Positions 8,871 to 30,979 of a stretch of DNA of 30,979 nt are shown here, piece by piece; the first letter of the stretch is position 1; each line of letters opens with the position of its first letter. Under the pieces are notes generated by a model. The model was not told the origin of the DNA and made no database searches. It worked only from the letters and a program-made list of their open reading frames with translations. The translations under genes were made by a program, and so were the position numbers. Origin of the DNA: a virus; IMG/VR virus record IMGVR_UViG_3300047388_000414, positions 1-30,979 of that record; one strand, written 5' to 3'.

Positions 8871-8975
8871 TTAAGAACCCCCTAAAGAGAAAAGAGGAAA
8901 TAGTAAAGTAAAAGCCCAAAAATCACATAGTGGTAGAATAAGTGGAAGGAGACATGGGAGTGTCGTATAATCTCC
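8871..8975 (+). repeat. Left copy of a perfect inverted repeat of at least 105 bp
   Basis: Every base matches the reverse complement of 30875-30979. Identity stops after 8975. At the other side it stops only because the window ends, so the repeat may continue to the left of 8871. This copy contains an antisense fragment of the last 17 codons of the large-terminase gene. It ends inside the CGTATAATCTCC element. Confidence 0.95.
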
Positions 8976-8976
8976 G
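8964..8976 (+). promoter_or_regulatory. Repeated promoter-like element CGTATAATCTCCG, copy 1
   Basis: An identical 13-base word occurs at 9334-9346. It contains a perfect TATAAT (8966-8971) but lacks a good -35 at 16-18 bases. It is about 80 bases before the first right-arm gene (9054), a suitable place to start the virion transcript. Confidence 0.45.
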
Positions 8977-9001
8977 AATCTTATATACAACTCGTATAGT
9001 A

Positions 9002-9032
9002 AGTATCCGAAAGCATTCAGTAAAGTGCTTTT
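9002..9032 (+). other. Leader hairpin before the first right-arm gene
   Basis: AAAGCA pairs with TGCTTT around a 10-base loop (about 9011-9032) and is followed by one more T. It lies between the promoter-like element and ATG 9054. A weak attenuator or processing site is possible. Confidence 0.25.
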
Positions 9033-9053
9033 AGTCCAAAGCAAGGTACAAGT

Positions 9054-9311
9054 ATGATAAAACAAATATTACAAGCAATAGATTTATATGCTCTATATTG
9101 GGACGGTGATAAATATTTCATCTTACCAGTTGAATTTTATTCTTTGCATGATAATGGGGATATAAAATGTCATGCATTTGATAGCGATGGTATGTTCGAT
9201 GCTGTAGATGATGAGAGAAATTTTGTAAGATTAATAAAAACAAAAAAAGACTTTCCAATAGCAATAGATATAGATAAAGATGCATTATTAGAATTAGGAA
9301 TAAAACTGTAA
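9054..9311 (+). CDS. 85-residue acidic hypothetical protein
   Basis: AAGG lies 8 bases before ATG 9054. The product is acidic and beta-rich (YALYWDGDKYFILPVEFYSL, then two Asp-rich stretches) with no membrane segment. It resembles no family I can name. It is the first gene of the right arm, next to the inverted repeat. Confidence 0.6.
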   Translation: MIKQILQAIDLYALYWDGDKYFILPVEFYSLHDNGDIKCHAFDSDGMFDAVDDERNFVRLIKTKKDFPIAIDIDKDALLELGIKL

Positions 9312-9333
9312 TGAGTTTACATTAAGAAAGAAG

Positions 9334-9346
9334 CGTATAATCTCCG
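9334..9346 (+). promoter_or_regulatory. Repeated promoter-like element CGTATAATCTCCG, copy 2
   Basis: Identical to 8964-8976. Its TATAAT (9336-9341) is only 7 bases upstream of ATG 9349. Transcription would therefore start at or next to the start codon, giving a leaderless message. Confidence 0.5.
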
Positions 9347-9348
9347 GT

Positions 9349-9672
9349 ATGAATATAAGTAAAAACATTGTAAAAAGCTCTTCTAAATATAGAAAAAGTC
9401 TTCTTGAATATAAAAATTTAATAGAAAGAATATTAGGAAAAGAATTAATGAGTCTACACCCAGCAAGAGATGATATAGAAGCTAGAAGAAAAAGAGAAGC
9501 AATAGAACTATGCGGTAAGAATAGAGGCCCACACGATTACATTGCTATCGAATGGGTTAAGACAGAAAACACAGAGCGAGTAACCAGATTACTTTGTAGA
9601 GTTTGCTTTTGTAATATATCTACATCTACACTGATATCAAATTACGAAGATGTGAGTTATGTAGGAAGTTAG
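9349..9672 (+). CDS. 107-residue basic hypothetical protein, possibly leaderless
   Basis: No Shine-Dalgarno precedes ATG 9349, but a TATAAT does at the distance expected for a leaderless mRNA. The product begins with a basic helical half (KYRKSLLEYKNLIERILGKEL) and has a late cysteine cluster (CRVCFC) that could bind metal. Its end overlaps the 3' end of the convergent lysozyme-like gene by 47 bases. Function unknown. Confidence 0.55.
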   Translation: MNISKNIVKSSSKYRKSLLEYKNLIERILGKELMSLHPARDDIEARRKREAIELCGKNRGPHDYIAIEWVKTENTERVTRLLCRVCFCNISTSTLISNYEDVSYVGS

Positions 9673-10123
9673 TATATTTATTAATTGATTCAACTTTAGT
9701 AGCTGAACCTAATTCTGTATTGTAATATTTTTTATAATAAGTCCAGATAGCATCTACATTACGAAAATCAGGCAAAGGCTCTTTAATTCTTTCATAAAAT
9801 ATTCGAGTCATAGCGGTAGCGAAACGTAAATCATAAATGAGAATATCTTCAGCTGGCATATACGTAAGACCGAAGTTAGAGAACAACTTTAAGAGTAAAC
9901 CACCTCGAGTATGAATATAGTTTTGCCAGATATCATTGTAAGTCTGAGGTTCCATTTGATAGATACCTAACGCAGGACCATTAACTTGTTTAAGATAATG
10001 ACCGCCCAAAGATTCTACAGCGCAAGTGAATACCATTAACTCCTCTGCATTTTGTGAATACATTAGCAAATCATTTAATGTAGACTTAACAATAAGCTCT
10101 CGAAATTGAAGTATATTTAACAT
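9626..10123 (-). CDS. Lysozyme/transglycosylase-like endolysin
   Basis: A 165-residue product. Residues about 30-62 carry a soluble-lytic-transglycosylase-like signature: a catalytic Glu in AVESLGG (Glu37), then GPALGIYQMEP (the family's G-x-x-G-x-x-Q-x-x-P-like block) and a Trp-containing helix (DIWQNY). It would cleave peptidoglycan, either for lysis or as a wall-opening enzyme. It has no signal peptide, so a holin would be needed for export. The start is 10123; the 25-residue upstream extension overlaps the divergent gene. It is encoded against the virion genes, and the 16-like internal protein of this phage seems to lack such a domain. Confidence 0.6.
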   Translation of the reverse strand: MLNILQFRELIVKSTLNDLLMYSQNAEELMVFTCAVESLGGHYLKQVNGPALGIYQMEPQTYNDIWQNYIHTRGGLLLKLFSNFGLTYMPAEDILIYDLRFATAMTRIFYERIKEPLPDFRNVDAIWTYYKKYYNTELGSATKVESINKYTNFLHNSHLRNLISV

Positions 10124-10188
10124 TATGAAAGAAATCCTATAAAATCTAATAATGATGTTAATCGATAGACATGAGGAATGAAACCAAG

Positions 10189-10803
10189 ATGTCAACAAAA
10201 GACGGAATGATAGTAGATGACATTTATAAGCATTTTAAAAATAGATACAATTTAAAGTATTGCGAAGAAACACATTGCAAACTACTTATAAAAGTAATGA
10301 TGAATAAAGATTTCGGATGCCATAGTGCATTTTGTGTTCAAGCAATGGTCTGTGAACAAACATTCTATAACTGGGTTCACAAGCATGAGATTTTTAGGAG
10401 CCTCTGGTTTTTTACTAAGATGGTTGCTAAACAACTCTGGTTCGAAGAAGGCAGAAAGATTAGAGATAAAGAATACCAGATGGGTACAATTAACTTTGAG
10501 TTTGAACATTGGAAGCTCATGGGATGGACCAAGTTCGGTATTAGTCGAAATTCAAAGATTAGAATCAATGTTAATCCTGAAGACTCTCCAGCTAAACACT
10601 ATCAAGAGATTTTAAGACAAGCTTCTGAGGGTGATTTCACTGCTAGTGAATTCAAACAATTAATGGAAGCTGTGAATGTTGGATTAAATGTTCACCAAGT
10701 CTTTGAGTTACAAAAGCAGATAGATGAGTTAAAATCTGATTTGTCAATAGTTGCGGTGAATGCAAATGTCAAAAATCCTTTCGCAGATAAAGGAGCTACG
10801 TAA
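10189..10803 (+). CDS. Probable terminase small subunit
   Basis: A 204-residue product (ATG 10171 would add six residues). The N-terminal region has an HTH-like segment (CEQTFYNWVHKHEIFRSLW) like the DNA-recognition region of phage small terminases. A Trp-rich helical middle and a C-terminal helix rich in Gln, Glu and Lys (VFELQKQIDELKSDL) suited to oligomerisation follow. Small terminases recognise packaging sites and regulate the large subunit. Here it lies about 19 kb from the large subunit. GAGGA at 10173-10177 supports the 10189 start. Confidence 0.6.
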   Translation: MSTKDGMIVDDIYKHFKNRYNLKYCEETHCKLLIKVMMNKDFGCHSAFCVQAMVCEQTFYNWVHKHEIFRSLWFFTKMVAKQLWFEEGRKIRDKEYQMGTINFEFEHWKLMGWTKFGISRNSKIRINVNPEDSPAKHYQEILRQASEGDFTASEFKQLMEAVNVGLNVHQVFELQKQIDELKSDLSIVAVNANVKNPFADKGAT

Positions 10804-10900
10804 AAAAATTAAAATACCGTGGCGTATTATATATGTTGACAGAGAGATTAAGCCGGAAGAATTTGAGAAGAAAACAATATATGTTCACATATGGATATAG
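10766..10900 (+). CDS. 44-residue basic hypothetical protein
   Basis: An ORF of 44 codons overlapping the small-terminase 3' end by 38 bases; its stop lies within the Shine-Dalgarno (TAGGAGAG) of the next gene. The product is basic at the start (MSKILSQIKELRKKIKIPW) and has a beta-rich end. Its own initiation site is weak, so translation may depend on coupling. Confidence 0.45.
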   Translation: MSKILSQIKELRKKIKIPWRIIYVDREIKPEEFEKKTIYVHIWI

Positions 10901-10909
10901 GAGAGCACT

Positions 10910-11212
10910 ATGAGCTGGTGGACTGATATTAAAGATAACTTTGAAAAAATAGCAACGTTCGGTTTGATTGACCCTAAGAGTAATAGGGAACAACAAAGCA
11001 TGATGAATGCTCAAATGAAAGCATATCAAGAACAAACTGAACTAGCTAAAAAGCAATTAGATGAAGCAAGAGCTACAGCTGATGTACAAAAACGTAGAAT
11101 AGAAGAAAAGCAAATTCGAAGTTTACGTGGTAGAAATAGGGCGCAAAACACAGGAATGCTAGGAGTCGGTATGCCTGCCTCAGATGACTTAAGTACTCAA
11201 TTAGGCGGATAA
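10910..11212 (+). CDS. Small virion-region protein at the T7 gp7.3 position
   Basis: A 100-residue product with a central helical stretch (MMNAQMKAYQEQTELAKKQLDEARATADVQKRR) and a Gly-rich, Arg-containing end (TGMLGVG, then STQLGG). It lies immediately upstream of the portal, where T7 carries gp7.3, a tail-assembly protein. Similarity is by position and general make-up, so the role is inferred. GGAGAG precedes its ATG. Confidence 0.5.
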   Translation: MSWWTDIKDNFEKIATFGLIDPKSNREQQSMMNAQMKAYQEQTELAKKQLDEARATADVQKRRIEEKQIRSLRGRNRAQNTGMLGVGMPASDDLSTQLGG

Positions 11213-11217
11213 GATAA

Positions 11218-12867
11218 ATGGATACAACCCAAGGAATGCCTCCTGTTCCAATGCCGGGCAACTCAATGCTTGAGACTTTGCGGAAGAGATATAATACAGC
11301 TAAATATACAGCTGATTTGTGGATTCCAATTCAGCAAGCAGCTTATTTCTATGCGATACCATTTCGTAATAGATATTATCTTCCAGGTAAGGAATTCCAA
11401 GGGACCATTCAAAATACGCGAGTCTACGATACAACCGCAGTAGAAGCAGTTACAACCTTTGTTAGTAAAATACATGACACAATGACACCCCCACAGGTTC
11501 AATGGGGATATTTAGAAGTTGATGATACAATCGTCAAAAACTCTGATGATGAGGAAAGTATACAGCTACTTCAAGAAGCTCAGATGATTCTTGATAATTA
11601 CATGCGTCAATTGTTCACTTACATTCATGCTTCAAACTTCGATGTGACCATTAACGAATGCTACTATGATTTAGCTGTAGGCACTTCAGCACTTGTCATT
11701 AATCAAATTGATGATGAAACCCCGTTCATGTGTACAAGCATTCCTGCTGATAAGCTTGCTATTGAAGAAGCGGCAAATGGCAATATTGAATCATGGTTTC
11801 GAACATGGCAGAACCTTAAAGTATGCGAGCTTAATACTCGTTGGCCTAAGATTATTCTTACACCAAATTTACTAGCATTAATTGCTGGTGACCCTGATGC
11901 AGTTATTAGAAATGTGTATGAAGGGGTAGCTTACTTTGCAAATCAGCCAAAGAAATATTTATATGCTGTGTGGGCTGATAATGATTTGCTTTACTACCAA
12001 TGGTTAGAATCAAATCCAGGCATCGTATGGCGTTGGAAGAAATGTAATAACGAAACCTGGGGACGTGGTCCCGTAATGGAAGCATTGCCTTCTATTATCA
12101 GTTTAAATGAAATGGCGAGGATAGAGCTTGCGTCCGCTAATATTAATACTTTTCGCCCCTATATGGGATTTAGTGATGCTGTATTTAACCCTCACACATT
12201 CAAACTGGAGCCTTTCACCATTATCCCTATTGCTCCTATTGGTTCTAATGGCCAAGTACCTCTTATACCATTACCTAATAGTGCAAATCCTGAATTTGCG
12301 CAGATGACTGTTGCTGATTTGAGAATGCAGATTAAACAACTTCTATTTGCAGAACAGCCTCAAGATTCACGTAGTGTGCAACCACAAACAGCTTATGAAC
12401 TTGCTATGAAGCAATCAACTCTAGCTGAAAAAATAGGACCTATATTTTCTAGAAGTATTCAAGAATTCATGTGGCCTGTTATCAAGAGATTTGCTTATAT
12501 TCTAAACTCAATGGGTTTATTGCCATATCCTGATATAGGTGGAATCCCCATAGTATTTAAGTATAAATCCCCTCTTGCATTATCTAAAGGTCGAGCTGAT
12601 GTTGAGCGTTTTGTACAGTACATTCAAGTAATGCAGGGAATCATGGGGCCGGAAGCAACACAATTATATATTAATCCTAAAACTACTCCGTACATGATTG
12701 CTGACATGCTACAGATAGATGAACGATTCTTGAATAAGCCTGAAGATGTTCAACGTGTTATGCAACAACAACAGAATAAACAAAGCATGGCTGAGCTTGC
12801 TAATCCACAAGGCAGTATGCCAGAGCAACCACAAAACCCAAGTCAACAACCTATAGCTACTTCATAA
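11218..12867 (+). CDS. Portal (head-tail connector) protein
   Basis: A 549-residue product, close to the length of T7 gp8 (536). The N-terminal half contains family-like blocks (WIPIQQAAYFYAIPFRN, FVSKIHDTMTPPQVQWG). The C-terminal half has a long helix with QPQTAYELAMKQS, followed by a Gln-rich end. Twelve copies form the ring at one head vertex through which DNA is packaged and ejected. It is followed by the scaffold and capsid genes, as in T7. Confidence 0.85.
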   Translation: MDTTQGMPPVPMPGNSMLETLRKRYNTAKYTADLWIPIQQAAYFYAIPFRNRYYLPGKEFQGTIQNTRVYDTTAVEAVTTFVSKIHDTMTPPQVQWGYLEVDDTIVKNSDDEESIQLLQEAQMILDNYMRQLFTYIHASNFDVTINECYYDLAVGTSALVINQIDDETPFMCTSIPADKLAIEEAANGNIESWFRTWQNLKVCELNTRWPKIILTPNLLALIAGDPDAVIRNVYEGVAYFANQPKKYLYAVWADNDLLYYQWLESNPGIVWRWKKCNNETWGRGPVMEALPSIISLNEMARIELASANINTFRPYMGFSDAVFNPHTFKLEPFTIIPIAPIGSNGQVPLIPLPNSANPEFAQMTVADLRMQIKQLLFAEQPQDSRSVQPQTAYELAMKQSTLAEKIGPIFSRSIQEFMWPVIKRFAYILNSMGLLPYPDIGGIPIVFKYKSPLALSKGRADVERFVQYIQVMQGIMGPEATQLYINPKTTPYMIADMLQIDERFLNKPEDVQRVMQQQQNKQSMAELANPQGSMPEQPQNPSQQPIATS

Positions 12868-12877: not shown

Positions 12878-13192
12878 ATGGAGCAAAACAATCCTTTTCT
12901 TGAGCAAGAGAACTTCTTCTCGGGATATCAAAAAAGTATCGATGAATTAAAAAATAACCCACAAATAATTGAATTTGACAAACTCTGCTTTGAGCTATTT
13001 GAAAGTAATGCTCAAGGTAAAAGATTTTTAGAGTTAGTAAAAGAAAGGTACCTTGTTCCTGCATTAGTTAAAAGTGGAACAACTACCTATCAATTAGATG
13101 TTTTGTGGGCTGAAGGATTTAAAGAATTTGGTAGAATGCTACTTGGTTCGGTTCGTTCGCATCAACAAAGAATATTAGCAGGAACTAAATAA
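12878..13192 (+). CDS. 104-residue hypothetical protein between portal and scaffold
   Basis: GAGGAAATA precedes ATG 12878 and the stop overlaps the next start (TAATG). The product is mostly helical and acidic at first (QKSIDELKNNPQIIEFDKLCFELFE), then basic (GKRFLELVKERYLVPALV). It is probably a virion or assembly factor by position; no family is recognised. Confidence 0.6.
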   Translation: MEQNNPFLEQENFFSGYQKSIDELKNNPQIIEFDKLCFELFESNAQGKRFLELVKERYLVPALVKSGTTTYQLDVLWAEGFKEFGRMLLGSVRSHQQRILAGTK

Positions 13193-13875
13193 TGACAGTT
13201 GAGACACCACCCGAAATACCATCTCAGCCAAGTTGGTTTCTGGATGAAGGAATGCCAGGAATAGGTGATAGACCCAGTTGGTTACCTGATAAATTTAAAA
13301 CAGTAGCTGACTTATCAAAAAGCTATACTGAGCTTGAAAAACGTGTAGGCATAGTTCCTGATAATTATGATTTTACTAAGTCAAAGTTTCTTGACCCTGA
13401 TTATGCACCGTTCCAAGACTTACAAGTCTTAGCTAAAGAAAAGCGTGTTCCTCAAGAATTCATTGATAAAATGCTAGAGTCTGTTGATAAATACATGGAT
13501 GAATTCACGATAGATAACAATGAAGAAATTAAGAAGTTAGGTGATAATGGCAAAGAACGTGTTGTAGTCTTGGATAATTGGGCGAAAGCTAACCTTTCAA
13601 AAGATGCTTATGAAGCTTTAACAGGTAGCTTAACTAATGCAGCTTCAATTAAAGCACTAGAAGAATTAAGAGGAAAAATGATGTCCGGCACACCACAAGT
13701 ACCTAATGATAATGGCTCGGTTACAGGCTCCGCCTCCTTAGATGATATCAAGTTAGAGTTATCAAATAATCTTGCTAAATATAAGACTGATGAAGGCTAT
13801 CGAAAAGATTTACAGAAGCGATTAGAAGTTGCATCTAAAAATGCTCCGGGCTTTGTTGACAAAGTAGGCGCATAA
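13192..13875 (+). CDS. Capsid scaffolding protein
   Basis: A 227-residue product with the features of podovirus scaffolds: an acidic, Pro-rich N-terminus with PSWLPDKFKTVADLSKSYTELE, long charged helices and a basic C-terminal end (YRKDLQKRLEVASKNAPGF) that may contact the capsid protein. Scaffolds guide prohead assembly and leave before the head is filled. It lies directly upstream of the major capsid gene. Confidence 0.8.
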   Translation: MTVETPPEIPSQPSWFLDEGMPGIGDRPSWLPDKFKTVADLSKSYTELEKRVGIVPDNYDFTKSKFLDPDYAPFQDLQVLAKEKRVPQEFIDKMLESVDKYMDEFTIDNNEEIKKLGDNGKERVVVLDNWAKANLSKDAYEALTGSLTNAASIKALEELRGKMMSGTPQVPNDNGSVTGSASLDDIKLELSNNLAKYKTDEGYRKDLQKRLEVASKNAPGFVDKVGA

Positions 13876-14040: not shown

Positions 14041-14871
14041 ATGTCCACTTCATTGACAGCCGTCCAACAAATTGAGTTTGATGCGCTTGTAAAAGCAGAA
14101 TATCAATCTCTTGGTTTTTTATTACGTGATACTGTTCGCGTTCGTAGAGACGTGATTGGTGCTACTGTGTCTTTCCGTAAGGTAAACCAAATTCAAGCTG
14201 TACCAACTGGTTATTTACAAACTGTAGTTATTCAAGACCCAACTTACAGTCAAACCTCAGCAATTCTACAAAAGTATACTGCTCCTACTGCTGTAGATTC
14301 CGTACAAGAATTAACAGTTAACTTTGATGCTAAGATGGAAAACGCTATGTTAGTAGCGAATGCTTTAGGTCGTCGTTCCGACCAAATCATTATTGATTCC
14401 TTAGCAGTATCTCCAGGTCAAACAATTTTGGATGGCGGTACTAACATGACTTATGTTAAGTACACTCAAGCAATCCAATTTTTCGATAATAATGCTGTTC
14501 CTTTACCAGAACGTTTTGCTGCAATGTCGGCCAGTAATTTCCAATCACTTCTTCAAGCTGACCAGTTCGTTTCTACTTTCTATACACAAAATCGTGTATT
14601 GGATAAAGGGTTCGTACGTGATTACCTTGGTGTAAACATTATTATCATTCCTGAAATGATTGAAGGTGGATTACCTTTTGTTAGTCCAGATATTCGTAAA
14701 ACATTCTTCTGGCACAAGCAATCAACCGGTATGGGTATTGGTCATGACTTCCGCACAGAAATTAATTACTTACCTCGTGAAACTTCTTGGTTAGTAAATG
14801 GCATCTTTTCTGCTGGAGCAATCACTATTGATAACTTAGGTATCATCCAAATCAACTGTGATGAGACTTAA
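14041..14871 (+). CDS. Major capsid protein
   Basis: A 276-residue product between scaffold and tail genes. The mid-region (VQELTVNFDAKMENAMLVANALGRRSDQIIIDSLA) is typical of HK97-fold capsid proteins of small podoviruses, and the C-terminal half has the FRTEINYLPRETSWLV type of ending. It forms the icosahedral shell. AGGGG 8 bases before ATG 14041 gives strong initiation. It is shorter than T7 gp10A (344), with no obvious insertion domain. Confidence 0.85.
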   Translation: MSTSLTAVQQIEFDALVKAEYQSLGFLLRDTVRVRRDVIGATVSFRKVNQIQAVPTGYLQTVVIQDPTYSQTSAILQKYTAPTAVDSVQELTVNFDAKMENAMLVANALGRRSDQIIIDSLAVSPGQTILDGGTNMTYVKYTQAIQFFDNNAVPLPERFAAMSASNFQSLLQADQFVSTFYTQNRVLDKGFVRDYLGVNIIIIPEMIEGGLPFVSPDIRKTFFWHKQSTGMGIGHDFRTEINYLPRETSWLVNGIFSAGAITIDNLGIIQINCDET

Positions 14872-16378: not shown

Positions 16379-18928
16379 ATGGCATACACGACATGGTCGC
16401 AAGATATTTTTACGAAAGGTGAGCTTTCACCTTACATGTACGCTCGTGTTACCGTCAATGAATATAATAACGGATTAAAGACAGCGCAGAATGTTTTAAC
16501 TTATCCCTCAGGAGCCGCAGGTAAAAGATTTGGTACACTGTATCAAACAACCTTGACGGGCTTTACAGCTTTCGACCAACTTTATTTTCAAACATTCCAA
16601 TATTTAAATGAATGCGTTTATCAGATAGTAATGACACCTGGTAATATTTATATATATCTTGAAGGAAAGTTACAGGCTGTTGTTGTAGCAGGTTATACAG
16701 CTCCGCAAATCTTTAATGGAATCTCTACAGTTTTAGGGGCTATATTTAGATTTACTACTCAAGGTATTCGTCCATTTGATTTAACAAGGTCACCAAGTGC
16801 ACCATTTATAATTAATGCACTTGTGAGTAGTACTCAACTTAGTATTACAACCGCAAGTTTTCCCGTTGGAAATATCTATCCTGTGAAATTCGATACAGGC
16901 GTATTGCCTACAACTATTCCACAAATATTTACAGGTATTACTTACTTTATTTATACTCACACTACTACTACATTTAGTATTTATAGCACTTCTAAAGATG
17001 CAAAATTTCAGACTAATCCATTTACTATTATTAACGCTGGTGCAGGTTCCCATGTAGTAATACAAGATAACTGGGCTATTACTGCAACTGTATTTAAGAA
17101 TCGTCCTGTATATGATTTCAATGGCGCAGTTGTTTCTTATGACGGAAATGGGTTTAGTGCTAGTGCTGTTTCTGGAAGTAATGTCACGATTACTGTTACA
17201 CCACCCTATTCTTTATTATCTAGTGCATATGTAGGTGGTGCGCTTTTTATGAGCGGTGGTTCTGCAAGAATTACAGCTGTAGCTTCCACCGCATCTTTTA
17301 CTGTTGCTGTTCAAACACCCTTTAATGTTGCTAGCTCTTTTATCCCTGGCAGCCTGGTATTACTAACAGAACCTGCATGGAGTGATACTAGAGGATGGCC
17401 TCAAGTATGTTCCAGTTATCAGAGCCGAGCATTATTTGCTAATACATCTAGTTTGCCTAATGGTTTCTGGGCTAGTGTAATAAATGACTATAGTGATTTT
17501 GGTGACTTAACAACAGACGATGATGATGCTATTAGCTTCTACCCAACATCTGACAATATGAATTATATAAAATTCATAGTTCCATATCGCAGTATCACTG
17601 TTCATACAAACACAGGCATTTATTCAAGTCCATTGTCAGATGTTACAGCTATAACGCCTACTAATTTTACTCTTCAATTGCAAGATTCAACCCCAGCTGA
17701 TGTTATACAGCCAACAGCAATTGATAATCAGATTGTTGTGTTATCAGGTAATGATGCACATCAAATGTTGTGGGATGGTATCAATAATGCTTATACATCT
17801 AATATAGTATCAGTAATAAGTGAACAAACAATTCGTGACCCACAGGATGAAACAGCATTTCAAAATTTACGCAGAGCCGGAAGTCGATTTGTATTTATCA
17901 TAAATAGAAATGGTTCAATGGCAACATATCAAACATTAATCTCTCAAGGGGTTTCTGGTTTTACGCTTCAAATTATGGAGCAATCTTATGGGTCAGCCTC
18001 TTTTATACAAACTGCAAGTAGCTCCGATGGACGTTGTTGGTTTGTAGTTCAGAGACAAATAGCACAAACAGCTTTTACAAGTGCTATTACGGGATTTACA
18101 GAAGAAACATCAACAGACCCATCTACACTTGAAGTCTTATCAATTAACTTTAGTCCTACAATACCTACTGCTATGCTATTTGCTACAACGGGAGTTTTAC
18201 CAACAAGCTCACCTCAAGTAAATTCATCTCAATACTATTGGGCTGTAGGAGTTGACACGGATAATTTTGTAGTTTATTTAACTCAAGAGGATGCACTTAA
18301 TGCAATAAGTGCAATTAACTTTACGAGTATAGGAACTTTAAGTACCGTAACTTCATGGCCCTTAGCTACAATATTTACACTTGAAGAATTAACGGATGAA
18401 GTATTTTTAGATTGTGCTATTCAATACAATGGAACGCCAACTGATACAGTTTTAACAGGCAATTTGTTTAATGCTCAAGATATTAAAATGGTAGGCGATG
18501 GTTTCGGTTTTGTTTCTGAGGCGAATATTAATCTAGGCAATCAAATTGTATTTGAATCTCATGGCAGCACAGTTGAGGTATCTGATGCATTTATTGGATT
18601 TCCCATTAATACTGTTATAGAACCGATGCCATTAAGTATTGCTAGTGGCTCTTCTCCTAAAGAAACAACATTAACTAAGCCTAAGAGAATTATGTTTGTT
18701 AGATTCATGTTTAACAATACGATAGGAGGCACTATAAATGGCGTACCTATTGCACTCGAACCTTTTGATATGGCGCACATTGGTGAGCCGCCATTCCCAG
18801 CTAGAGGGATTTTCGAATTGAGTGTTTTGAAAGGATGGGATGACTTTAATAATCCAACATATACAATAGAACATAATGAACCATTCGATATCCAATTGCT
18901 TGGTGTGTTTTATTCAGTAGAGATTTAA
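16379..18928 (+). CDS. Tail tubular protein B / nozzle (gp12-like)
   Basis: An 849-residue product, close to T7 gp12 (794). The N-terminus (FTKGELSPYMYARVTVNEYNNGLKTAQNVLTYPSGAAGKRFGT) is diagnostic for the family. The rest is long beta-rich sequence, as in the multi-domain nozzle. Six copies form the tail tube tip that receives DNA from the adaptor. AAGG lies about 9 bases before the ATG. Confidence 0.85.
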   Translation: MAYTTWSQDIFTKGELSPYMYARVTVNEYNNGLKTAQNVLTYPSGAAGKRFGTLYQTTLTGFTAFDQLYFQTFQYLNECVYQIVMTPGNIYIYLEGKLQAVVVAGYTAPQIFNGISTVLGAIFRFTTQGIRPFDLTRSPSAPFIINALVSSTQLSITTASFPVGNIYPVKFDTGVLPTTIPQIFTGITYFIYTHTTTTFSIYSTSKDAKFQTNPFTIINAGAGSHVVIQDNWAITATVFKNRPVYDFNGAVVSYDGNGFSASAVSGSNVTITVTPPYSLLSSAYVGGALFMSGGSARITAVASTASFTVAVQTPFNVASSFIPGSLVLLTEPAWSDTRGWPQVCSSYQSRALFANTSSLPNGFWASVINDYSDFGDLTTDDDDAISFYPTSDNMNYIKFIVPYRSITVHTNTGIYSSPLSDVTAITPTNFTLQLQDSTPADVIQPTAIDNQIVVLSGNDAHQMLWDGINNAYTSNIVSVISEQTIRDPQDETAFQNLRRAGSRFVFIINRNGSMATYQTLISQGVSGFTLQIMEQSYGSASFIQTASSSDGRCWFVVQRQIAQTAFTSAITGFTEETSTDPSTLEVLSINFSPTIPTAMLFATTGVLPTSSPQVNSSQYYWAVGVDTDNFVVYLTQEDALNAISAINFTSIGTLSTVTSWPLATIFTLEELTDEVFLDCAIQYNGTPTDTVLTGNLFNAQDIKMVGDGFGFVSEANINLGNQIVFESHGSTVEVSDAFIGFPINTVIEPMPLSIASGSSPKETTLTKPKRIMFVRFMFNNTIGGTINGVPIALEPFDMAHIGEPPFPARGIFELSVLKGWDDFNNPTYTIEHNEPFDIQLLGVFYSVEI

Positions 18929-19450: not shown

Positions 19451-21660
19451 TGGCTGAATTAGATTTTTCACATACAGTTTCAGAGGTTCCTCAACATCAA
19501 CAGAATCCAGCGCCGTATCATCGTACTGAAAAAATCGAACAAAATACTACGCCAGATTTCCAAAGCGCAATATCAAATTATGCCAGTAGTCAAAATTGGA
19601 TGTCTTCCGTAGGTTCATTTGTAGCTAATCGAGCATCAAATGCTATAGCCGAAAAATTAGGTACAGAAATAGGAAAAAATCCTAAAGGTGATTTAGGTGT
19701 TATTCCATTAACTGAATTTGATGATGCTATGCAGAAGAGTTATGTAACTCAATCTCAAGCAACTCTAGGCTTACAAGCTAATAAACTTATTACTGAATCT
19801 AATTTAGAAGTAGCTAAGGTTAGTCGTATAACGCCAGAACTAATTAGAAAAACTAATAGTTCTGTTTCTATTGGACTACAAAATATATTTAATAATGCTC
19901 CTTCTGCAATTCAAGCTAACTTACAGTCTCATTATGGGAACTTAATGTTGACTCAGAATGCAGACTTAACAGAGCGAATGCTTAGAGAACAAAAACAAGA
20001 TAGGACGAATAATACAGCTTTAGCTAGTCAGATGAATAATGAGCATGCTTATACATTTGGATTGCATGGCAATGATAAGGCAGCTCAGGCCGCAATAGAG
20101 ACTACAACTAAACTATCTCAAGCTGATGTTGCATCGCGGCTAATGACTCCTGAACAAGCTAAATCTAATATTGATGCTGCACGAAAAAGTTATCTTACCG
20201 GTAAAATGATTCATGATTATAATTCTAAAAAAGATGAAGAAAAACCAGCATATTTGAAGTCTATTGTTGATAAAAAACCAGACTATTTAAGTGACACAGA
20301 TTACATGGATGTTACAAATGGTCTAATGACTTTTGTAAATCATCAAAATGCTTTGCTAGCCCAAGACCAATCATTATCATTAGCTAAGTTTAATACTAGC
20401 ATTGCTATGAATCCTTTGGCTGCTGACATGCCACAACAACTACAAGAACTAAAAAGAAATGTTTCACCTATAGCATATGAGCAAGCACAATTAAAATATG
20501 TAAATACGGTCAAAGCTTTTAACACTGAACAAGGTAATGTCAATAATGCTATCGCTTCATGGAATGACCCAAGTTCTTTTTCTCGTCTTACTGAAAAAGG
20601 AATAAACAAAGCTTTTGATACTCAAGTTAATCATTATGTTCAACAACGACAAGAGCAAAGCAATCCTATTTCAGTAGAAGAAGCTGAAGTGCAAGTAGCA
20701 GCCTCAGCTGGTGGGAAAATACCTATTTTTGAAAAAGAATTACAAAATAAACTGTTAAGTGGAAATCCTGCAAATATTCAATCTGCCTCAAATCAAATTG
20801 ACATGTTAAATCATATGAAACGTGGAAGTGTATATGAAGGTGTTTCTACTAAAGCAAAAGCTATTGCTACTTTATTTCAACAACAACGCGGGTCAATGCC
20901 TGATAGTGATTTAGCTAGACAGATTACAGATAACTTATCTAATGTTGATGAAAAGATGCAAAAAACTTTAGATAATTCTTGGAGTCTAATACTTTCTCAA
21001 AAAGGTGTTGGAGGTATGGGAAAGAATAAATCCTTTGCTGATTTTGGTCTTCAAACTGTAGGATTATCTAAAGATAAAATGGGTGGCGATTATTTTGGAA
21101 CTATTTACGGTAATGATATTTATAACCAATTAAATTCTAATTTCACTGCCACTAGAGGTGATTATAATGCTGCTGTTAAGATGACTCAAGATTATGTTGA
21201 TAATCATTATTCGGATACTTATGTGAATGGTACTAAACAAAAATCTGATAGTTCTGTAGAGAAATATTTAGGATATGAAGGTAATGATGTAACTCCTTAT
21301 GTTCAACAGGATATATTAAATCATCTTTCTGAATCATTTAGTGTAGCGAAAACAGCTTATCCGGATGACTATTGGGAAACCTTACCTTTAAAGAATAAGG
21401 TAGTTGAAGCAGTAAGGCATGTAAAAACAAAAGATGGGATTAAGCAATATAGATATCCCATCAACTTAGTTGGCCGAGAAGGAAATCAATGGGATGTATC
21501 CGTTCAAACTCCTTATGGACAACGTAGTCTATTTTTAGTGGCTCCTCATCTTGGAATCACAACTTATAATCCAAATAAAGAAGCTATTGATAAAGCTTAT
21601 AAATCTAGAATAAGTCATTTCCCTTTAATAAGTCCTAAGGATATTCATAATGGCTACTGA
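19450..21660 (+). CDS. Internal virion protein (gp15-like)
   Basis: A 736-residue product, nearly the length of T7 gp15 (747), in the same place between the 14-like and 16-like genes. It is helical and rich in Asn, Gln and Lys, with no membrane segment. In T7, gp15 forms the middle of the ejection channel across the periplasm. GGAGG precedes the ATG, which overlaps the previous stop by one base. The end overlaps the next gene by 11 bases. Confidence 0.75.
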   Translation: MAELDFSHTVSEVPQHQQNPAPYHRTEKIEQNTTPDFQSAISNYASSQNWMSSVGSFVANRASNAIAEKLGTEIGKNPKGDLGVIPLTEFDDAMQKSYVTQSQATLGLQANKLITESNLEVAKVSRITPELIRKTNSSVSIGLQNIFNNAPSAIQANLQSHYGNLMLTQNADLTERMLREQKQDRTNNTALASQMNNEHAYTFGLHGNDKAAQAAIETTTKLSQADVASRLMTPEQAKSNIDAARKSYLTGKMIHDYNSKKDEEKPAYLKSIVDKKPDYLSDTDYMDVTNGLMTFVNHQNALLAQDQSLSLAKFNTSIAMNPLAADMPQQLQELKRNVSPIAYEQAQLKYVNTVKAFNTEQGNVNNAIASWNDPSSFSRLTEKGINKAFDTQVNHYVQQRQEQSNPISVEEAEVQVAASAGGKIPIFEKELQNKLLSGNPANIQSASNQIDMLNHMKRGSVYEGVSTKAKAIATLFQQQRGSMPDSDLARQITDNLSNVDEKMQKTLDNSWSLILSQKGVGGMGKNKSFADFGLQTVGLSKDKMGGDYFGTIYGNDIYNQLNSNFTATRGDYNAAVKMTQDYVDNHYSDTYVNGTKQKSDSSVEKYLGYEGNDVTPYVQQDILNHLSESFSVAKTAYPDDYWETLPLKNKVVEAVRHVKTKDGIKQYRYPINLVGREGNQWDVSVQTPYGQRSLFLVAPHLGITTYNPNKEAIDKAYKSRISHFPLISPKDIHNGY

Positions 21661-24600
21661 TAATATTATTGAATCTGCTGTAGGAGATATTCATGTTCCT
21701 AATAAGGGTTTAAAAAATACGCCTGTTGATACATCTTTTGAATTTATTCCCCAGAACCCTTTTACTATAGATATTCCATCTAAGACAGGTGAAGCAAATG
21801 AAACCGTTGCTAATCCAGGTTATTTAATAGAACCAGAAAAAATAGGAATTATAAAAACAGCAATTGATGAGTTTCAAAAATTAGCAACAGTATCTCATGT
21901 TTTACATGCTGCAAATGCTCCTTTAACAAAACCTGCTAGTGCACAAGTTGCACAATATTATCCAGATGTTAATGACAAATTTTATCATCCTGCTCCTCCT
22001 GGATGGTCTCCTAAACAAGAAATAGAAAAACAAACAAATATAGACCCAAAGTATTTGCCTAAGTTAATGGCAACTAAGAATCCAGATGATTTTAGATACA
22101 CAATGGATAGTATTAATGATGAAACAGTTCGTGATAAAGAGCTAGAAAATGGTTCTACATTAGGAAAAATATTGGGTGGTTTTCTTGGATTAACTGTAGG
22201 AAGCCCTGAGAATTTTATTCCTTTAACTGCTATTGCAACTAAAGCAAAAGTGGGCGCTGGATTTATAGAAGGAGCATTAAAGAATGGTTTAGGTTTGTCT
22301 GTGGCAGCCGCTATTCATGAAGGTGCGGCACAAATAGATAAAATAGATGGAAACTTACCTAGCTTTCTAAAAGATACATTTATTGATACTGTTTTTGGAA
22401 TGGCTTTCTATGGTGGTTTTGGAGCTGCAAAATCTTTAGTTAATGTAGTTGAATTTAATAATTTAAAGAAATTCGCTAGAGAATCATTAGATGGTATTGG
22501 TTTTAACTATAAAGTAGATAAAGAAGGCAATCTAAAAGGCTTTGAAGCTATTGATACAACAGGCGGCTACGCTCTTAATGCTGCCAGGGTTACAAGGGCC
22601 CAGGAACTTGCAGATGCAGCTTTTTTTAAAGGTCCAATCTTTAAGATTCCTTATTTGGGGACAGCTGTATTAAAAACAATTACAGGAAACTTTTCAAATG
22701 ATATTCCTGGCTTTAGAACTATTGGAAAAGGATTAGAATATCTTTTAGGTTCACCTTTAATTAAACTAAAAACCTCAGATTACCCTGAAGCTAATGCTTT
22801 TGCTGATGCAGCTTTTGACCATTTCATTACAACAGAAGGAGAAGCTAAAGGCGGTGTTAGACCTAAAAGTTTTGAGAAGAAAGTTAAAGAAACCAGAGCA
22901 ATGTTAACTGCTCTTAAAGCACAAACTAAAAGTCTTCATGCTGAAAGAAATGGTTATACTATAACTGCTCGTCCAGCTATTGATATTCAAAATGCTTGGA
23001 ATGCATCTAAGCAAAAGTCAATTGAAGCTTTATCACAAGATTCTAAATCAACAGATTGGACAAGTGAAGAAGGATTCATGGATGAAATACAGCATGTTTT
23101 ATTCACAGATAAATCTAGTGAACATGCTGCTGTAAATACAGGTGCTGCTATTTATCGTAAAATAATTGATAATACATGGGCAAATTATAGAAAAGCTTAT
23201 AATCTTCCAAAAGAATGGATGCCTCCCAAAACAGCCGAAGCATATTTAATGCGTATTTATAATACTGATTTTATGAATGCAAATGAAAATTTATGGATGG
23301 AAGTTGTTTCTAAATGGATTGGTGATTCTGATAAACTAATTACTCAAAAAATGAAACCAATTCATGATATTAATGAATTATTAGAACAACATAAAATTAA
23401 TCATGAAAATTTAATTCGTGGAATAAATAAAACAGATAAACAAGTTTCTGAATCAGCTGAAAAATTAATATCCTTGAAAGCTCAGAAAAAAGGATTAGAA
23501 GAAAAATTACAAAATGAATTAAGAGAAAATCCAGAATTAAATATTCATGTTGATGATTCAAGTGCATTATCAGCCAAAGAAGCAAATGATTTGAATCAAC
23601 TTACTAAACGTAGAGATATTGCATTTAAAGAACTCAAAGAGCAAAAGAAATTTATTGCTGATATGAAGAATAAGATTTCTAAAAGTAAATCTAATGCCAA
23701 TAAAGCGAAGACTGTTGCAACAGGAAAAAAACAAATAAGAAAAAGTGATATTGGTGAGATGGCACTAGAAAAAGAAGAAGAAAAATTAAGAATCTTAGAC
23801 AATGAACATGAGGAAGAAATACAAAAAATACATGAAGCCATTGCTAATGGTCAAGTTAATCCTAGGTTATTTTATAGAGAGCCAGAAAGTAACACATTTA
23901 AATTAAGAGACTCAACTAATAGATTAAAATTTAGAGATATTCATGAGTCTGATTTTCATATAAGGCAAGTAGCTAAGAGCACTTTTGATTCAATCATGCA
24001 TATGCATCCTGAAGATGTTATCTCGGACATATTTGGAAAATTAATGGGTAATCCTGAAGCTAACCCATTAAAAAAACGTACTCTAATGATTCCAGATGAA
24101 ATACTTTATAACAATAATTTTATGACAAAAGATCTTTTTGCTAAAACTGCTAACTATGTTAATTATCTTTCTAAAAAAACTCATTTAAAAACATCTTTTG
24201 AAAATGTTACTGTTAATGGAGACTTTAAAGAATTGGCGGAAGGTATCTCAAATCGTTATCAATCAAGACGTGCTATTATAAATAAAAAATTAGAAAAAAT
24301 TACTGACCCTAAAGAAATAATAAAACAACAAAAACTCTTAAAAAAAGAAGATATAAAATTTAAAGATATTAAAAATACAATGCAACAATTGTTTGAAACC
24401 AGAATGATGGGTATTAATAAAAGAAATGATTTTGATACGATGTTCAGACGAACATTGATGTCATTAACAGCTTCTGTGAACCTGCATAATATGCCTGCAA
24501 CACAAATTACTGATTTAGCTTTCGCAGGTTTTCAACATGGTATATGGCCTTCTATAAGAGATGGTATATATCCTATTATTGAAAGTCTTGGTGGGATTTT

Positions 24601-25689: not shown

Positions 25690-28374
25690 ATGTCAGACGT
25701 TGTGATTGGTGATATTCTTCCCTATACACAAGCTACAGCTATATTAAACCAAGTTGATTTTGGCACAAATTGGACTGCTAACTTTGCTTCTGATGTTGTA
25801 GTTTATGTTACGCCATTCGGTGATGCTCCTGACGATGAGACACAAATTCTTTCTTATCCTTCTCAGTATTCTGTCACTTTTATAGGAGCTGAATTAGAAG
25901 TTCAAGTTACCTTAGTTACTCCATCCGCAGCGGGGGATATTGTAACTATAACTCGTATGACTCCTGCTGATAGAGAAAATCTCTATACCAATACTAATTT
26001 CACTCCTAGTATGTTGAATAATGACTTCGGCATTCTCACTTTAGTAGACCAGCAAGCTGAATTAGTTAATCAATTAATTGCACCTAGATATAACTACTCA
26101 GCTGTGATTGCTCCGAATTCATCTTTTCCTAATGCTAATATTATTTTACCTATTCTAAACGGTAATGAATTTTGGGCAATGAATGGTGCTGGAACTGCTA
26201 TTGAATCTGTCCCTATCAGTACAATTGTTAGTGGTGGTACGGTAACTCAAATCAATACAGGGCTTGGTTTAACGGGTGGCCCAATTACCAATGCAGGAAC
26301 AATATCTTTTGATACTATGACTGCTAATACTTTTTGGGGGAATATTACTGCTGGAGTTGCTTTGCCCACGATGGTGCCAACAACTTACTTTCTCAAAGCC
26401 ACTAATAATCTTTCTGACTTAACAAACGTTCCACAAGCTCGTATTAATTTAGGGTTACAAATTGGCGTAAATGTTCAAGCCTATAATGCGGCGTTAGCTA
26501 GTATTGCTGGATTAACCACTGTTGCTAACAATCTAATCTACACTACAGGTTCTAATACTTATGCTGTTATTACACCTGCTAATAGTAGTGTAATGCAATC
26601 TAGTGCTGCTGGTGTACCTAGTTGGAGCCAGACACTACCTCAAGCTGTTCAAACTAATATTCAATACTTAGGCGTTCAAAATCAAAACTTAAACATGGGT
26701 GGCTTCCAAATTAATAATGGTGCAGACCCCAGTCAGCCATCCGATTTTGCGACAAAAAATTACGTAGATTTGAATTCTTTAACAGGTACGTCAGTTTATG
26801 CTGCAACTACTACTAACTTAACTGTTACTCAATCAGGCTCTGGTGTAGGTGCTACTTTAACCAATGCGGGTGCACAAGCTATTTTTGCACTTGATGGAGT
26901 TAGTCCTCCTCTAAATTCAAATGTATTAGTAAAAAATCTAGCATCTGCACAAAATGAAGGCATATATCGAGTTTCAGATGTTGGTTCTGCTATCACAAAT
27001 TGGGTATTAACTCGAGCTACAACATATGACACTCCTACAGAAATTAACAATACAGGTTTAATTATTATTAATAATGGTGCTACTTTAAGTGGTACCGCTT
27101 GGTATAACTCAGTAACTATTGTGGCTGTAGATGTTACTGCTTTCAATTATTCACAATTTGGCAATATAACATTTCCTGTTTCATTAGCTCATGGGGGTAC
27201 GAATGCAAACTTGACAGCTAGCGCAGGTTCTATTGCATATAGCACCTCCACAGCTATAGCATTATCTGCTGTAGGAACTAGTGGACAGTTATTGCAGTCT
27301 GGTGGTGCAGGCGCTCCTACGTGGAGTGCAGCAACATTTCCTACTACAGTTGGCGCTGCTGGTAAAATAATACGGTCTGATGGTACATCAAATGTATATA
27401 GTACAGCTACATTTGCTGATACATACGCTGCTAGTAATATCTTATATTCCAATGGTGCTAATACTGTTACTGGTTTAGCAACTGTTAATAGCGCTGGATT
27501 ATTAACAAATGGTTCAGGTGTGCCTGCTTGGGTTGTAGCTACTGGAACAGGAGCTCCTGTTCTTGGAACTAGTCCAACAATTAATAATCCTTTAATTAAT
27601 GCTATTAATGACCAAGCTAATAATATACCCGTACTAACATTTACTGGTGCAGCTTCTGCTGTTAATTTTATTACAGCTGTTAATAGTGTAACAGGAGCTT
27701 TTCCAGGATTTCAGTTTGCTGGTACAGATGCTAATGTTACTGGTTTATTTACTACTAAAGGTTCTGGTGGATTTAGTTTCAGCAATAACCTAGGTGTTTC
27801 AGCTGCTAATATTCTTACTTTAACAGGTGCCTCAACTTCTGTTAATTATGTAAATATTGCATCGGCATTAACTACAGCAAGTCCTACTATTTCTGCTCTT
27901 GGTACAGATTCAAATATAACTTTAACTCTTTCAGGTAAAGGAACGAGTGGAGTTGCGTTAGTGGGGGTTACAACAAATTCTAATGCCGCTGCTGGAAGGG
28001 TGGGTGAAGTTATCAGTAGTGTTATTTTAACAGCTTCGGCAGTTACTTTTAATAATGCAACTGTAACAAATTTGACTTCTATCAGTTTAACGGCTGGTGA
28101 TTGGGATGTCGATGCAAACATAAGATTTGGAGTAACTGTCGCTACTTCAGGTGTAATTTGTTGGACAAGTTTAGTATCGGCAACACTTCCAGACCCTGCT
28201 TTATATAATCAAGTAACGGCAGCCACGGCAATATATGGTTCTATTGCATTGAATACACCTAAATTAAGAGTGTCTATTTCATCAACAACAACAGTTTATG
28301 TTTCAGGATATGCAACATATTCATCGGGAACTGTTGTAGCGTCTGGACAGATATCAGCAAGAAGAGTTAGATAA
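25690..28374 (+). CDS. Tail fibre protein (gp17-like N-terminus)
   Basis: An 894-residue product, longer than T7 gp17 (553). Residues 1-140 resemble the conserved T7-type particle-binding domain (IITRM/TITRMTPADRENLY type of segment and a helix DFGILTLVDQQAELVNQL). The shaft has Ala/Thr/Gly-rich repeats of the NLIYTTGSNTYAVI and GQLLQSGGAGAPTW kind, and the end (SGQISARRVR) is a common fibre terminus. It is trimeric and binds the host surface. AGGA precedes the ATG. Confidence 0.85.
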   Translation: MSDVVIGDILPYTQATAILNQVDFGTNWTANFASDVVVYVTPFGDAPDDETQILSYPSQYSVTFIGAELEVQVTLVTPSAAGDIVTITRMTPADRENLYTNTNFTPSMLNNDFGILTLVDQQAELVNQLIAPRYNYSAVIAPNSSFPNANIILPILNGNEFWAMNGAGTAIESVPISTIVSGGTVTQINTGLGLTGGPITNAGTISFDTMTANTFWGNITAGVALPTMVPTTYFLKATNNLSDLTNVPQARINLGLQIGVNVQAYNAALASIAGLTTVANNLIYTTGSNTYAVITPANSSVMQSSAAGVPSWSQTLPQAVQTNIQYLGVQNQNLNMGGFQINNGADPSQPSDFATKNYVDLNSLTGTSVYAATTTNLTVTQSGSGVGATLTNAGAQAIFALDGVSPPLNSNVLVKNLASAQNEGIYRVSDVGSAITNWVLTRATTYDTPTEINNTGLIIINNGATLSGTAWYNSVTIVAVDVTAFNYSQFGNITFPVSLAHGGTNANLTASAGSIAYSTSTAIALSAVGTSGQLLQSGGAGAPTWSAATFPTTVGAAGKIIRSDGTSNVYSTATFADTYAASNILYSNGANTVTGLATVNSAGLLTNGSGVPAWVVATGTGAPVLGTSPTINNPLINAINDQANNIPVLTFTGAASAVNFITAVNSVTGAFPGFQFAGTDANVTGLFTTKGSGGFSFSNNLGVSAANILTLTGASTSVNYVNIASALTTASPTISALGTDSNITLTLSGKGTSGVALVGVTTNSNAAAGRVGEVISSVILTASAVTFNNATVTNLTSISLTAGDWDVDANIRFGVTVATSGVICWTSLVSATLPDPALYNQVTAATAIYGSIALNTPKLRVSISSTTTVYVSGYATYSSGTVVASGQISARRVR

Positions 28375-28425: not shown

Positions 28426-28437
28426 AATAAAAATCCT

Positions 28438-28884: not shown

Positions 28885-28919
28885 TTTTTAATCTCTTTAG
28901 TGATATTTTTGAACCAGTG

Positions 28920-28947: not shown

Positions 28948-28960
28948 TGCTTTTAAATCG

Positions 28961-28969
28961 TGCTATAAT
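28961..28969 (+). promoter_or_regulatory. Extended -10 promoter for the rightmost genes
   Basis: TGCTATAAT is a perfect extended -10 (TGnTATAAT), which can work with a weak -35. It would start transcription near 28976 for the gene at 29005 and the terminase genes. It is divergent with the moron promoter only a few bases away. Confidence 0.6.
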
Positions 28970-29004
28970 TTTTAATTATAATTAATAATTAAGAGAAATT
29001 TTAA

Positions 29005-29244
29005 ATGTCTGAAGAATTACAAAATCAAGTTGATACTTTAACAACTGAAAATACTAATCTTAAAACACAAATTGCTCAAACTAACGAAGGTGTTAAGAAT
29101 CTACTTGCACAATTAGATGCTCATAAACAATACTTGAATGAAAGTATTATTTCTAATTTAAGCTTGAGAACTAATTTGTTTTTAGGTCAAAAAGTTAATG
29201 AAGAACTTAATGCTAAAATTTCCGGGTTAGAGAATCCAGTTTGA
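29005..29244 (+). CDS. 79-residue coiled-coil protein
   Basis: AAGAGA precedes ATG 29005. The product has a near-continuous heptad-like helix (LQNQVDTLTTENTNLKTQIA) and no membrane segment or cysteines. It sits between fibre and terminase, where T7 has holin, small terminase and Rz. It lacks the membrane parts of holin or spanin, so its role is open. Confidence 0.6.
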   Translation: MSEELQNQVDTLTTENTNLKTQIAQTNEGVKNLLAQLDAHKQYLNESIISNLSLRTNLFLGQKVNEELNAKISGLENPV

Positions 29245-29263
29245 CAATAAAGGAGTGATAAGT

Positions 29264-29422
29264 ATGCCTCTTATACATAGCGATAGCAAAGAAGCCTTTA
29301 GTAAGAATGTAGCTGAACTTATGCATTCAAATTATCCTCAGAAGCAGGCCGTCGCTATAGCTTACTCTGAAGAAAGAGAAGCTGAAAAGAAAGAGCATGA
29401 GCGTAGAAAGTATGGTAAATAA
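29264..29422 (+). CDS. 52-residue conserved small phage protein
   Basis: AAGGAG lies 8 bases before ATG 29264. The product (MPLIHSDSKEAFSKNVAELM, then PQKQAVAIAYSEER and a Lys/Glu-rich end) resembles a small protein found in many phages with the PQKQAVAIAYS motif. Its function is not known to me. It overlaps the next gene by 11 bases. Confidence 0.7.
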   Translation: MPLIHSDSKEAFSKNVAELMHSNYPQKQAVAIAYSEEREAEKKEHERRKYGK

Positions 29423-29591
29423 ATCCATATATGCAGATAACTTTGAAGATGAGCGGCAAGAACATGAAACTCAAAAGTATGGCCCTCGTCTCCCAATTCC
29501 GGAGATGGCTGCTCATCCTCACACTTATTTTCGTCATAGCATTGAGCCTGCTTATGGAAACTATGACCGCCCTATTAATGAAAGCGTGTAA
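29412..29591 (+). CDS. 59-residue hypothetical protein before the large terminase
   Basis: ATG 29412 overlaps the previous stop by 11 bases; ATG 29397 would add five residues. The product is polar with His/Pro/Tyr-rich middle (GPRLPIPEMAAHPHTYFRHS). Codon use fits the neighbours. It ends 25 bases before the probable terminase start. Family unknown. Confidence 0.55.
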   Translation: MVNKSIYADNFEDERQEHETQKYGPRLPIPEMAAHPHTYFRHSIEPAYGNYDRPINESV

Positions 29592-29613
29592 AGTTTTTAA
29601 TTCTGAGGATTAA
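29464..29613 (+). CDS. Overlapping 49-residue membrane ORF (holin candidate, doubtful)
   Basis: In another frame within the 59-residue gene, ATG 29464 opens 49 codons with RRWLLILTLIFVIALSLLME, a good transmembrane helix with a basic edge. T7 carries its holin between fibre and terminase, so the place suits. But no clear Shine-Dalgarno precedes it, and it may be a chance shadow frame. Confidence 0.25.
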   Translation: MKLKSMALVSQFRRWLLILTLIFVIALSLLMETMTALLMKACKVFNSED

Positions 29614-29616
29614 ATA

Positions 29617-30927
29617 ATTTATATTAAAGTTCCTTCCATTAATCCTTATGACTTTCAGAAACGAATGTTTAAAGCTGTTTTAGAAGATAAGAATATCTGC
29701 GCTATTATTCATCGTAGGGCAGGAAAAGATATATTTTGTCTTGAAGCTTGGGTTCTTCGAGGTTTAAAAAGATTAGGAACACATGTTTATCTCTTTCCGC
29801 TTTACGCACAAGCTAGAAGTGTTATTTGGAATGGTATGGACTTTGATGGTAAACCATTTCTAAACGCTATTCCTGATGCCTTAATCTCTAGAAAAAATGA
29901 AGCTCGTATGGAAATTACTCTATACAATGGTAGTCGTTTAATTCTAGCAGGTTCAAATAATTATGACAGTCTCATGGGTACCAATCCTATTACTCTTATT
30001 TACTCTGAGTTTGCTCTACATAATCCGTTAGCAAGACAATATCTAAACCCTATTCTAGTACAGAATAAAGGCATAGAAATTATTAATAGCACTCCCAGAG
30101 GAATGAATCATCTATTCGAAGTCTATAATGCTGTTAGAGATTTACCTGATTACCATATTGAGCATCTAAGCGTAGACCAAACTTTCAAGCATGATGGCAT
30201 CACTCCTATTATCTCTAAAAAAGATATCAAGCGTGCTAAAGATTTAGGCATGTCTGATGAATTAATTCGACAAGAATTCTTTGTCGATTTCGAAGTTGGT
30301 AATCTTGGTGCATACTACACTCAAGAAATGGGCGACATGGTTCGAGAAGGTCGTATCACGATGCTTAAGCCTGACCCTCGACTTAAGTTACACTCCATAT
30401 GGGATTTAGGAGGTACCGATGCAACGGCGGGAATTCTTTTTCAGGTTACTGGTAAGTTTATTCATCTACTTTACCTTATCCACGATTCAAAACGTGGTTT
30501 TAAATCATATCTCGACGAAGCCGAAAGGGTCCGTGAAATATTTGGATGTCAATGGGGAAACCACTTTGGTCCTCATGACATAGACCATAAGCATCAAGGT
30601 TGGGAACATGCCGAGTCTAGACTAATGCAAGCTAGAAGATATGGTTGGCACTTTCAAATGGTTCCTAAGATGGCGTTTGATGATGGTATAGAAGCTGTTC
30701 GTTATATGTTCCCTAGGCTCCGTGTCGATAAACTTAATTGTGATTTATTAGTGAGAGCTCTACGAGAATATCAGCGTCTATTTAAAGAAGGCTTAGGAGT
30801 CTACGACAAGAAGCCTTTAGATAATTGGGCTGTACACATAGCCGATGCGGTGAGGTATTTAGGGGTGGTATATAGGAGATTATACGACACTCCCATGTCT
30901 CCTTCCACTTATTCTACCACTATGTGA
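29617..30927 (+). CDS. Terminase large subunit
   Basis: About 436 residues. The ATPase half has VPSINPYDFQKRM (adenine-binding Gln region), Walker A HRRAGKD (32-38), Walker B-like LIYSEFA (about 127-133) and coupling motif NSTPRGMNH (about 157-165). The nuclease half has acidic residues in WDLGGTDAT (about 262-270), GPHDIDHK (about 318-325) and DNWAVHIADAVRYL (about 402-415). It packages DNA through the portal and cuts it. The first ATG (29665) lies after the conserved Gln. The preceding stop at 29611 leaves only ATA or ATT codons, of which ATT 29617 has GAGG 8 bases upstream. Its last 17 codons lie within the inverted repeat. Confidence 0.85.
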   Translation: MYIKVPSINPYDFQKRMFKAVLEDKNICAIIHRRAGKDIFCLEAWVLRGLKRLGTHVYLFPLYAQARSVIWNGMDFDGKPFLNAIPDALISRKNEARMEITLYNGSRLILAGSNNYDSLMGTNPITLIYSEFALHNPLARQYLNPILVQNKGIEIINSTPRGMNHLFEVYNAVRDLPDYHIEHLSVDQTFKHDGITPIISKKDIKRAKDLGMSDELIRQEFFVDFEVGNLGAYYTQEMGDMVREGRITMLKPDPRLKLHSIWDLGGTDATAGILFQVTGKFIHLLYLIHDSKRGFKSYLDEAERVREIFGCQWGNHFGPHDIDHKHQGWEHAESRLMQARRYGWHFQMVPKMAFDDGIEAVRYMFPRLRVDKLNCDLLVRALREYQRLFKEGLGVYDKKPLDNWAVHIADAVRYLGVVYRRLYDTPMSPSTYSTTM

Positions 30928-30979
30928 TTTTTGGGCTTTTACTTTACTATTTCCTCTTTTCTCTTTAGGGGGTTCTTAA
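30875..30979 (-). repeat. Right copy of the perfect inverted repeat, reaching the window end
   Basis: Reverse complement of 8871-8975 without a mismatch. It holds the last 53 bases of the large-terminase gene and the 52 bases after it, and may continue beyond the window. Confidence 0.95.

Follow-up and report, generated by a model that had tools for sequence, protein, structure and literature searches.

Inverted repeats around both segments of a T7-like podovirus family point to a probable isomerising genome

An inverted repeat around the virion segment

The window analysed here, which is the entire IMG/VR record IMGVR_UViG_3300047388_000414 (30,979 bases), raises the question of why the virion half of a T7-like phage should be bounded by an inverted repeat that takes in the coding end of one of its own genes. 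A first-pass annotation had described a perfect repeat of at least 105 bp that includes the 3′ end of the terminase gene and stops with the window, and had offered three explanations: a fold-back assembly chimera, the terminal inverted repeats of a linear genome or an invertible 22-kb segment. A repeat scan (at least 25 bp) confirmed the repeat as the sole inverted pair in the window, with arms at 8871–8975 and 30875–30979 that are 100% complementary and lie 21,899 nt apart; an exact 105-bp match within 31 kb cannot be a product of chance. As the annotation had read it, the right copy (30875–30979, minus strand) is cut by the contig end, and it comprises the final codons and stop of the terminase open reading frame (ORF) together with 52 bp up to the end of the record. 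The left copy (8871–8975, plus strand) carries the antisense terminase 3′ end, stops just ahead of the first late gene and occupies a homologous position in relatives. In the closest relative of the window (G001, IMGVR 3300011424_000003; approximately 91–96% nucleotide identity), both copies are present and the repeat is longer by 64 bp on either side; the 105 bp seen in the window therefore represent a lower limit.

The segment between the arms (segment B, 8976–30874, plus strand) encodes a T7-like set of virion proteins: portal (11218–12867), scaffold-like protein (13192–13875), capsid (14041–14871), tail protein (16379–18928), fibre (25690–28374) and large terminase (29665–30927). To its left lies an early segment (segment A, 1–8450) that is incomplete in the window and encodes a phrog_3657 protein, a RusA resolvase, a collagen-like protein and ORFs of unknown function, with gene directions converging at approximately 7200. 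The collagen-repeat protein (403 amino acids; 2468–3679, minus strand) lies inside the early module and has tail-fibre-like PHROG matches. The annotation had also pointed out that T7-like genomes normally end just after the terminase gene, although with direct repeats; the gene order and the position after terminase bear out this comparison, but the window holds no direct repeat of at least 25 bp and, as a partial contig, is unable to show genome ends. No tRNA or RNA family was detected in the window (ARAGORN, Rfam). As near-identical DNA was absent from the phage collection and terminase relatives were absent from genome_contigs, neither an isolate nor a provirus was found. An exact search of viral_contigs with the first 47 bp of the window repeat gave no match, which is uninformative given that the relatives differ in this sequence.

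Relatives were collected from viral_contigs with the terminase (33 relatives) and the portal (148, of which the best 80 were kept), and whole contigs were then retrieved. Many of these contigs end just beyond terminase and approximately 2 kb upstream of the portal. An inverted repeat around segment B is present at the equivalent gene position in 24 contigs (the window and 23 others), with lengths from 25 to 234 bp, and its sequence is genome-specific, each genome having its own version. Within genomes, the two copies differ at only 3 of 1,967 bases (17 genomes; where the copies are assembly-graph overlaps at contig ends, the assembler itself accounts for part of this identity), whereas the nearest other genome is only 61–92% identical. 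Such near-identity within genomes and divergence between them indicates concerted evolution, which requires exchange between the copies. The left copy, that is, the antisense terminase 3′ end upstream of the portal, also occurs in contigs without the terminase end (G036, G037, G041, L207, L209, L223, L227 and L228), so it does not arise as an artefact of contig ends.

A second repeat pair and the junction between the segments

The structure is larger than the first-pass annotation had seen: a second inverted pair surrounds the early module, and both pairs belong to a single junction, here called R. The pair around segment A was found in eight contigs, namely G005 (1–99 and 11360–11458), G007, G008, G018, G019, G033, G049 and G050, and six of these (G005, G007, G008, G018, G019 and G049) carry both pairs together, giving two unique segments each with its own bounding inverted repeats, as in the herpesvirus type of layout. 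R (497–1193 bp) is made up of the two repeats, one on the A side and one on the B side, and the stretch that separates them, such that the two pairs are the two ends of R. In the resulting A–R–B layout, A (approximately 7.5–13 kb) opens at its far end in an inverted copy of the A-side end of R, and B (approximately 20–24 kb) closes at its far end in an inverted copy of the B-side end. Different spacers at the two ends of B were considered and ruled out, as one and the same conserved element recurs outside both ends. In the window, R probably extends from approximately 8450 to 8975, with the repeat continuing leftwards beyond the 105 bp; this left limit is taken from G005, in which the repeat stops at a start codon, and the second copy of the limit would lie outside the window.

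No single contig holds the full R on both sides of one segment, the best being G005 with 234 of 539 bp, and scans with RecE-like and phrog_3657 queries, which yielded G048, G049 and G050, returned no contig in which full R flanks A on both sides. Repeat lengths at contig ends are near k-mer sizes and are often equal within a contig (70/70, 85/87 and 86/88). The contigs therefore look as if they had been cut at the repeats by the assembly graph, in which case their ends would say nothing about physical ends. The proposal that the repeats are the inverted termini of a linear genome holds only partly: they do bound segments, of which there are two, but the left copy is internal.

Read from B to A, R contains the terminase 3′ end and, at the opposite side of B, the first late gene's leader, then a conserved noncoding element and, in some genomes, a putative promoter directed towards A. 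The noncoding element (8603–8793, minus strand; AGAGAGTTGTGGGGCACCGGA... followed by C-rich runs) was detected in 22 contigs at E values below 1e-15, with its core also present in a divergent clade, and is a candidate packaging site or origin; a pattern scan for further contigs with the element returned known ones only. In T7, the concatemer junction sits at the position that matches the place of this element beside the terminase gene. Given this adjacency, it is plausible that the element is perhaps a packaging site, with an origin of replication as the alternative. Runs of at least five C or G are enriched in R (22 contigs), at approximately 1–10 per kb compared with 0.2–0.5 per kb elsewhere in the genome, and might mark a packaging site, an origin or a G-quadruplex region. 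The putative promoter is sigma70-like (TTGACA-17-TATTAT; 8497–8525, minus strand) and faces the early module; it is a consensus match, not proof, and such matches directed towards A occur within R in 7 of 13 genomes against 2.1 expected. A DnaJ-domain gene lies within R in species S1 (G016, 21658–22167) and in G018 (11154–11648), and may thus be present in two copies per genome.

Orientation of the segments and its possible causes

Gene maps show that the orientation of A relative to B differs among lineages. Depending on the contig, the conserved element of R lies to the left or to the right of B, always pointing outwards, and A and B are joined through R in more than ten contigs. In three species, near-100% identical contigs from different metagenomes have opposite A/B junctions. 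In S3, G049 and G039 have the portal end of B connected to one end of A by an R of 817 bp. G048 has an identical 4,168 bp, which include the entire R, but here they adjoin B at its terminase end (10,687 bp identical). In S1, L226 and G016 have 3,789 bp of R plus A in common at 100% identity and link them to opposite ends of B, and L225 links the other end of A; R is 1,152 bp long with zero differences. In S2, L227 and L228 have opposite ends of A at the portal end, with some differences within R. These opposite junctions come from what appear to be short-read metagenome contigs, in which R (0.5–1.2 kb) exceeds the usual fragment lengths, and the path chosen by the assembler could be arbitrary for any one of them.

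On the basis of these observations, we suggest, with a probability of roughly 0.7, that the window is most of a T7-like podovirus genome with a two-segment, isomerising layout that inverts by homologous recombination; the invertible 22-kb segment is thus the best supported of the options proposed by the first-pass annotation, through the opposite junctions seen in short-read contigs of three species. Homologous recombination between the copies of R would flip B relative to A, RecE/RecT-like and RusA proteins of the phage may assist it, and the exchange that flips B would also keep the copies of R identical. The A modules of the family encode a RecE-like exonuclease VIII, a RecT-like protein (in G019), SSB, O-like and P-like replication proteins and RusA, the last of which is among the genes of the window's own A segment, as is the phrog_3657 protein. 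We favour homologous recombination given the RecE-like, RecT-like, SSB and RusA proteins of these modules and given that a site-specific recombinase is absent from the A proteins of the five near-complete ones (G005, G007, G008, G018 and G019). A protein-primed DNA polymerase B, of the kind that goes with a phi29-type linear genome, had no Pfam match among the 80 A-module proteins scanned from several genomes. In G008, the A module also encodes a protein with an RNA polymerase alpha C-terminal domain (L050:3418–4002, plus strand; PF03118, 1.8e-20), a possible transcription modulator.

As the end of terminase, the first late gene's leader and probably an early promoter all lie within R, flipping would leave every gene intact and would amount to isomerisation and not to an on/off switch. 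No gene switching by inversion was apparent: the end of terminase lies inside the repeat, so that terminase would be expected to read through either way. More speculatively, R may hold a packaging (or replication) site, and, as the copies of R face in opposite directions, a directional terminase would, after initiating at one copy, ignore the other and package the full A + B unit.

The most serious competitor, which we nevertheless regard as unlikely, is a fixed A–R–B–R′ genome in which R is a fully duplicated inverted repeat that never flips, with the opposite junctions being paths taken by assemblers through a repeat too long for them. The length of R relative to usual short-read fragments, the single junction type in each sample and the resemblance of contig ends to graph overlaps would all fit such a genome; however, concerted evolution shows that the copies recombine, and recombination between inverted copies also inverts, while the order of genes in A relative to B differs between lineages. 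A site-specific inversion by a phage serine recombinase, comparable to that of the Mu G and P1 C segments, appears improbable. A serine recombinase with a Resolvase domain (4e-42) is encoded by G021 (L074:6589–7155) and, by clustering, a homologue by G022, and these may be invertase-like, but both belong to the divergent clade only. The gene is missing from the five near-complete A modules, the repeats are long and genome-specific, no short conserved site marks the edge of the segment, and inversion switches no gene.

Still less probable is a bipartite genome of two separate linear segments with common terminal repeats. This would account for the many contigs that consist of B alone between inverted repeats, but A and B attach at opposite ends of R, which makes R a junction and not a common terminus, and the contigs that join A and B through R (more than ten) run counter to separate segments. 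To a fold-back artefact of assembly or library preparation we give almost no credence. Although the window repeat stops exactly at the contig end, as such a chimera would predict, its gene position is kept in the 23 other contigs with independent, differing sequences, the internal antisense copy is present in contigs without the right end, and G001 extends both copies; nor did the relatives show terminase continuing into unrelated DNA with nothing spanning the region equivalent to 8870–8976, the outcome that the first-pass annotation had named as refuting its observation. An isomerising genome that inverts by homologous recombination hence remains our preferred reading.

Comparison with known isomerising and inverting genomes

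Herpesviruses, among which HSV-1 has an isomerising genome, and plastids are textbook cases of segments that isomerise across inverted repeats, and the capsid and terminase of herpesviruses have common ancestry with those of tailed phages. The family described here resembles HSV-1 and ostreid herpesvirus 1, the latter with a TRL-UL-IRL-X-IRS-US-TRS genome in four isomers (PMC9836095), in having two unique segments with their own inverted repeats, a junction between them and, as the short-read contigs suggest, possibly also differing relative orientations. It differs from them in being a much smaller, T7-like tailed phage with repeats of 0.1–1.2 kb, and its T7-like portal, scaffold, capsid and tail genes place it outside the herpesviruses. 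We found no tailed phage with such a layout in the literature searched (openly licensed papers). It is tempting, although distinctly tentative, to go further and envision a tailed-phage family with a herpesvirus-like genome, in which the halves flip freely by homologous recombination over a duplicated packaging-site junction and terminase skips every second copy to pack full-length isomers. If confirmed, the isomerising architecture would have arisen or persisted on the phage side, would offer a small system for asking why viruses retain isomerising genomes and would account for the breaking of short-read assemblies of this phage group at two recurrent places.

The chloroplast genome is quadripartite, with large and small single-copy regions and two inverted repeats. 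If R is fully duplicated, the phage genome would have a similar A–R–B–R′ map, in which recombination keeps the copies identical and a single-copy region flip-flops; unlike the chloroplast repeat, R is short and carries a phage gene end and a conserved cis element. Invertible segments of phages include Mu G and P1 C. Two further phage inversions, the L region of PhiH, which is flanked by ISH1.8, and the tail fibre switch of phiCh1, are driven by insertion sequences or recombinases (PMC6210493). All four involve phage DNA between inverted repeats that is found both ways round, as here, but those systems rely on IS elements or recombinase genes, and fibre genes are switched by several of them. 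In the present family, by contrast, most genomes have no recombinase, the entire virion module makes up the segment and genes are not switched.

Among distantly related phages, no inverted repeat comparable to R was found in six genomes, and Dunaliella viridis virus SI2 has a 448-bp direct terminal repeat with nothing comparable to R. SI2, Methylophilales phage MEP301, Pelagibacter phage Hodr, Mareflavirus ZP6 and Vibrio phage 1.179.O resemble the window family in virion gene order and at approximately 25–36% identity in capsid, portal or terminase. In MEP301, ZP6 and Vibrio phage 1.179.O, terminase lies upstream of the portal, whereas in the window family it is the last gene of the late module. 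Across the family, the fibre region that precedes terminase (25690–28374 in the window) is highly variable in length and ORF number. In G007, terminase (34053–35324, oriented map) is split into two adjacent ORFs of 208 and 207 amino acids that both match the family, which may reflect a frameshift, an intron-like insert or a sequence error.
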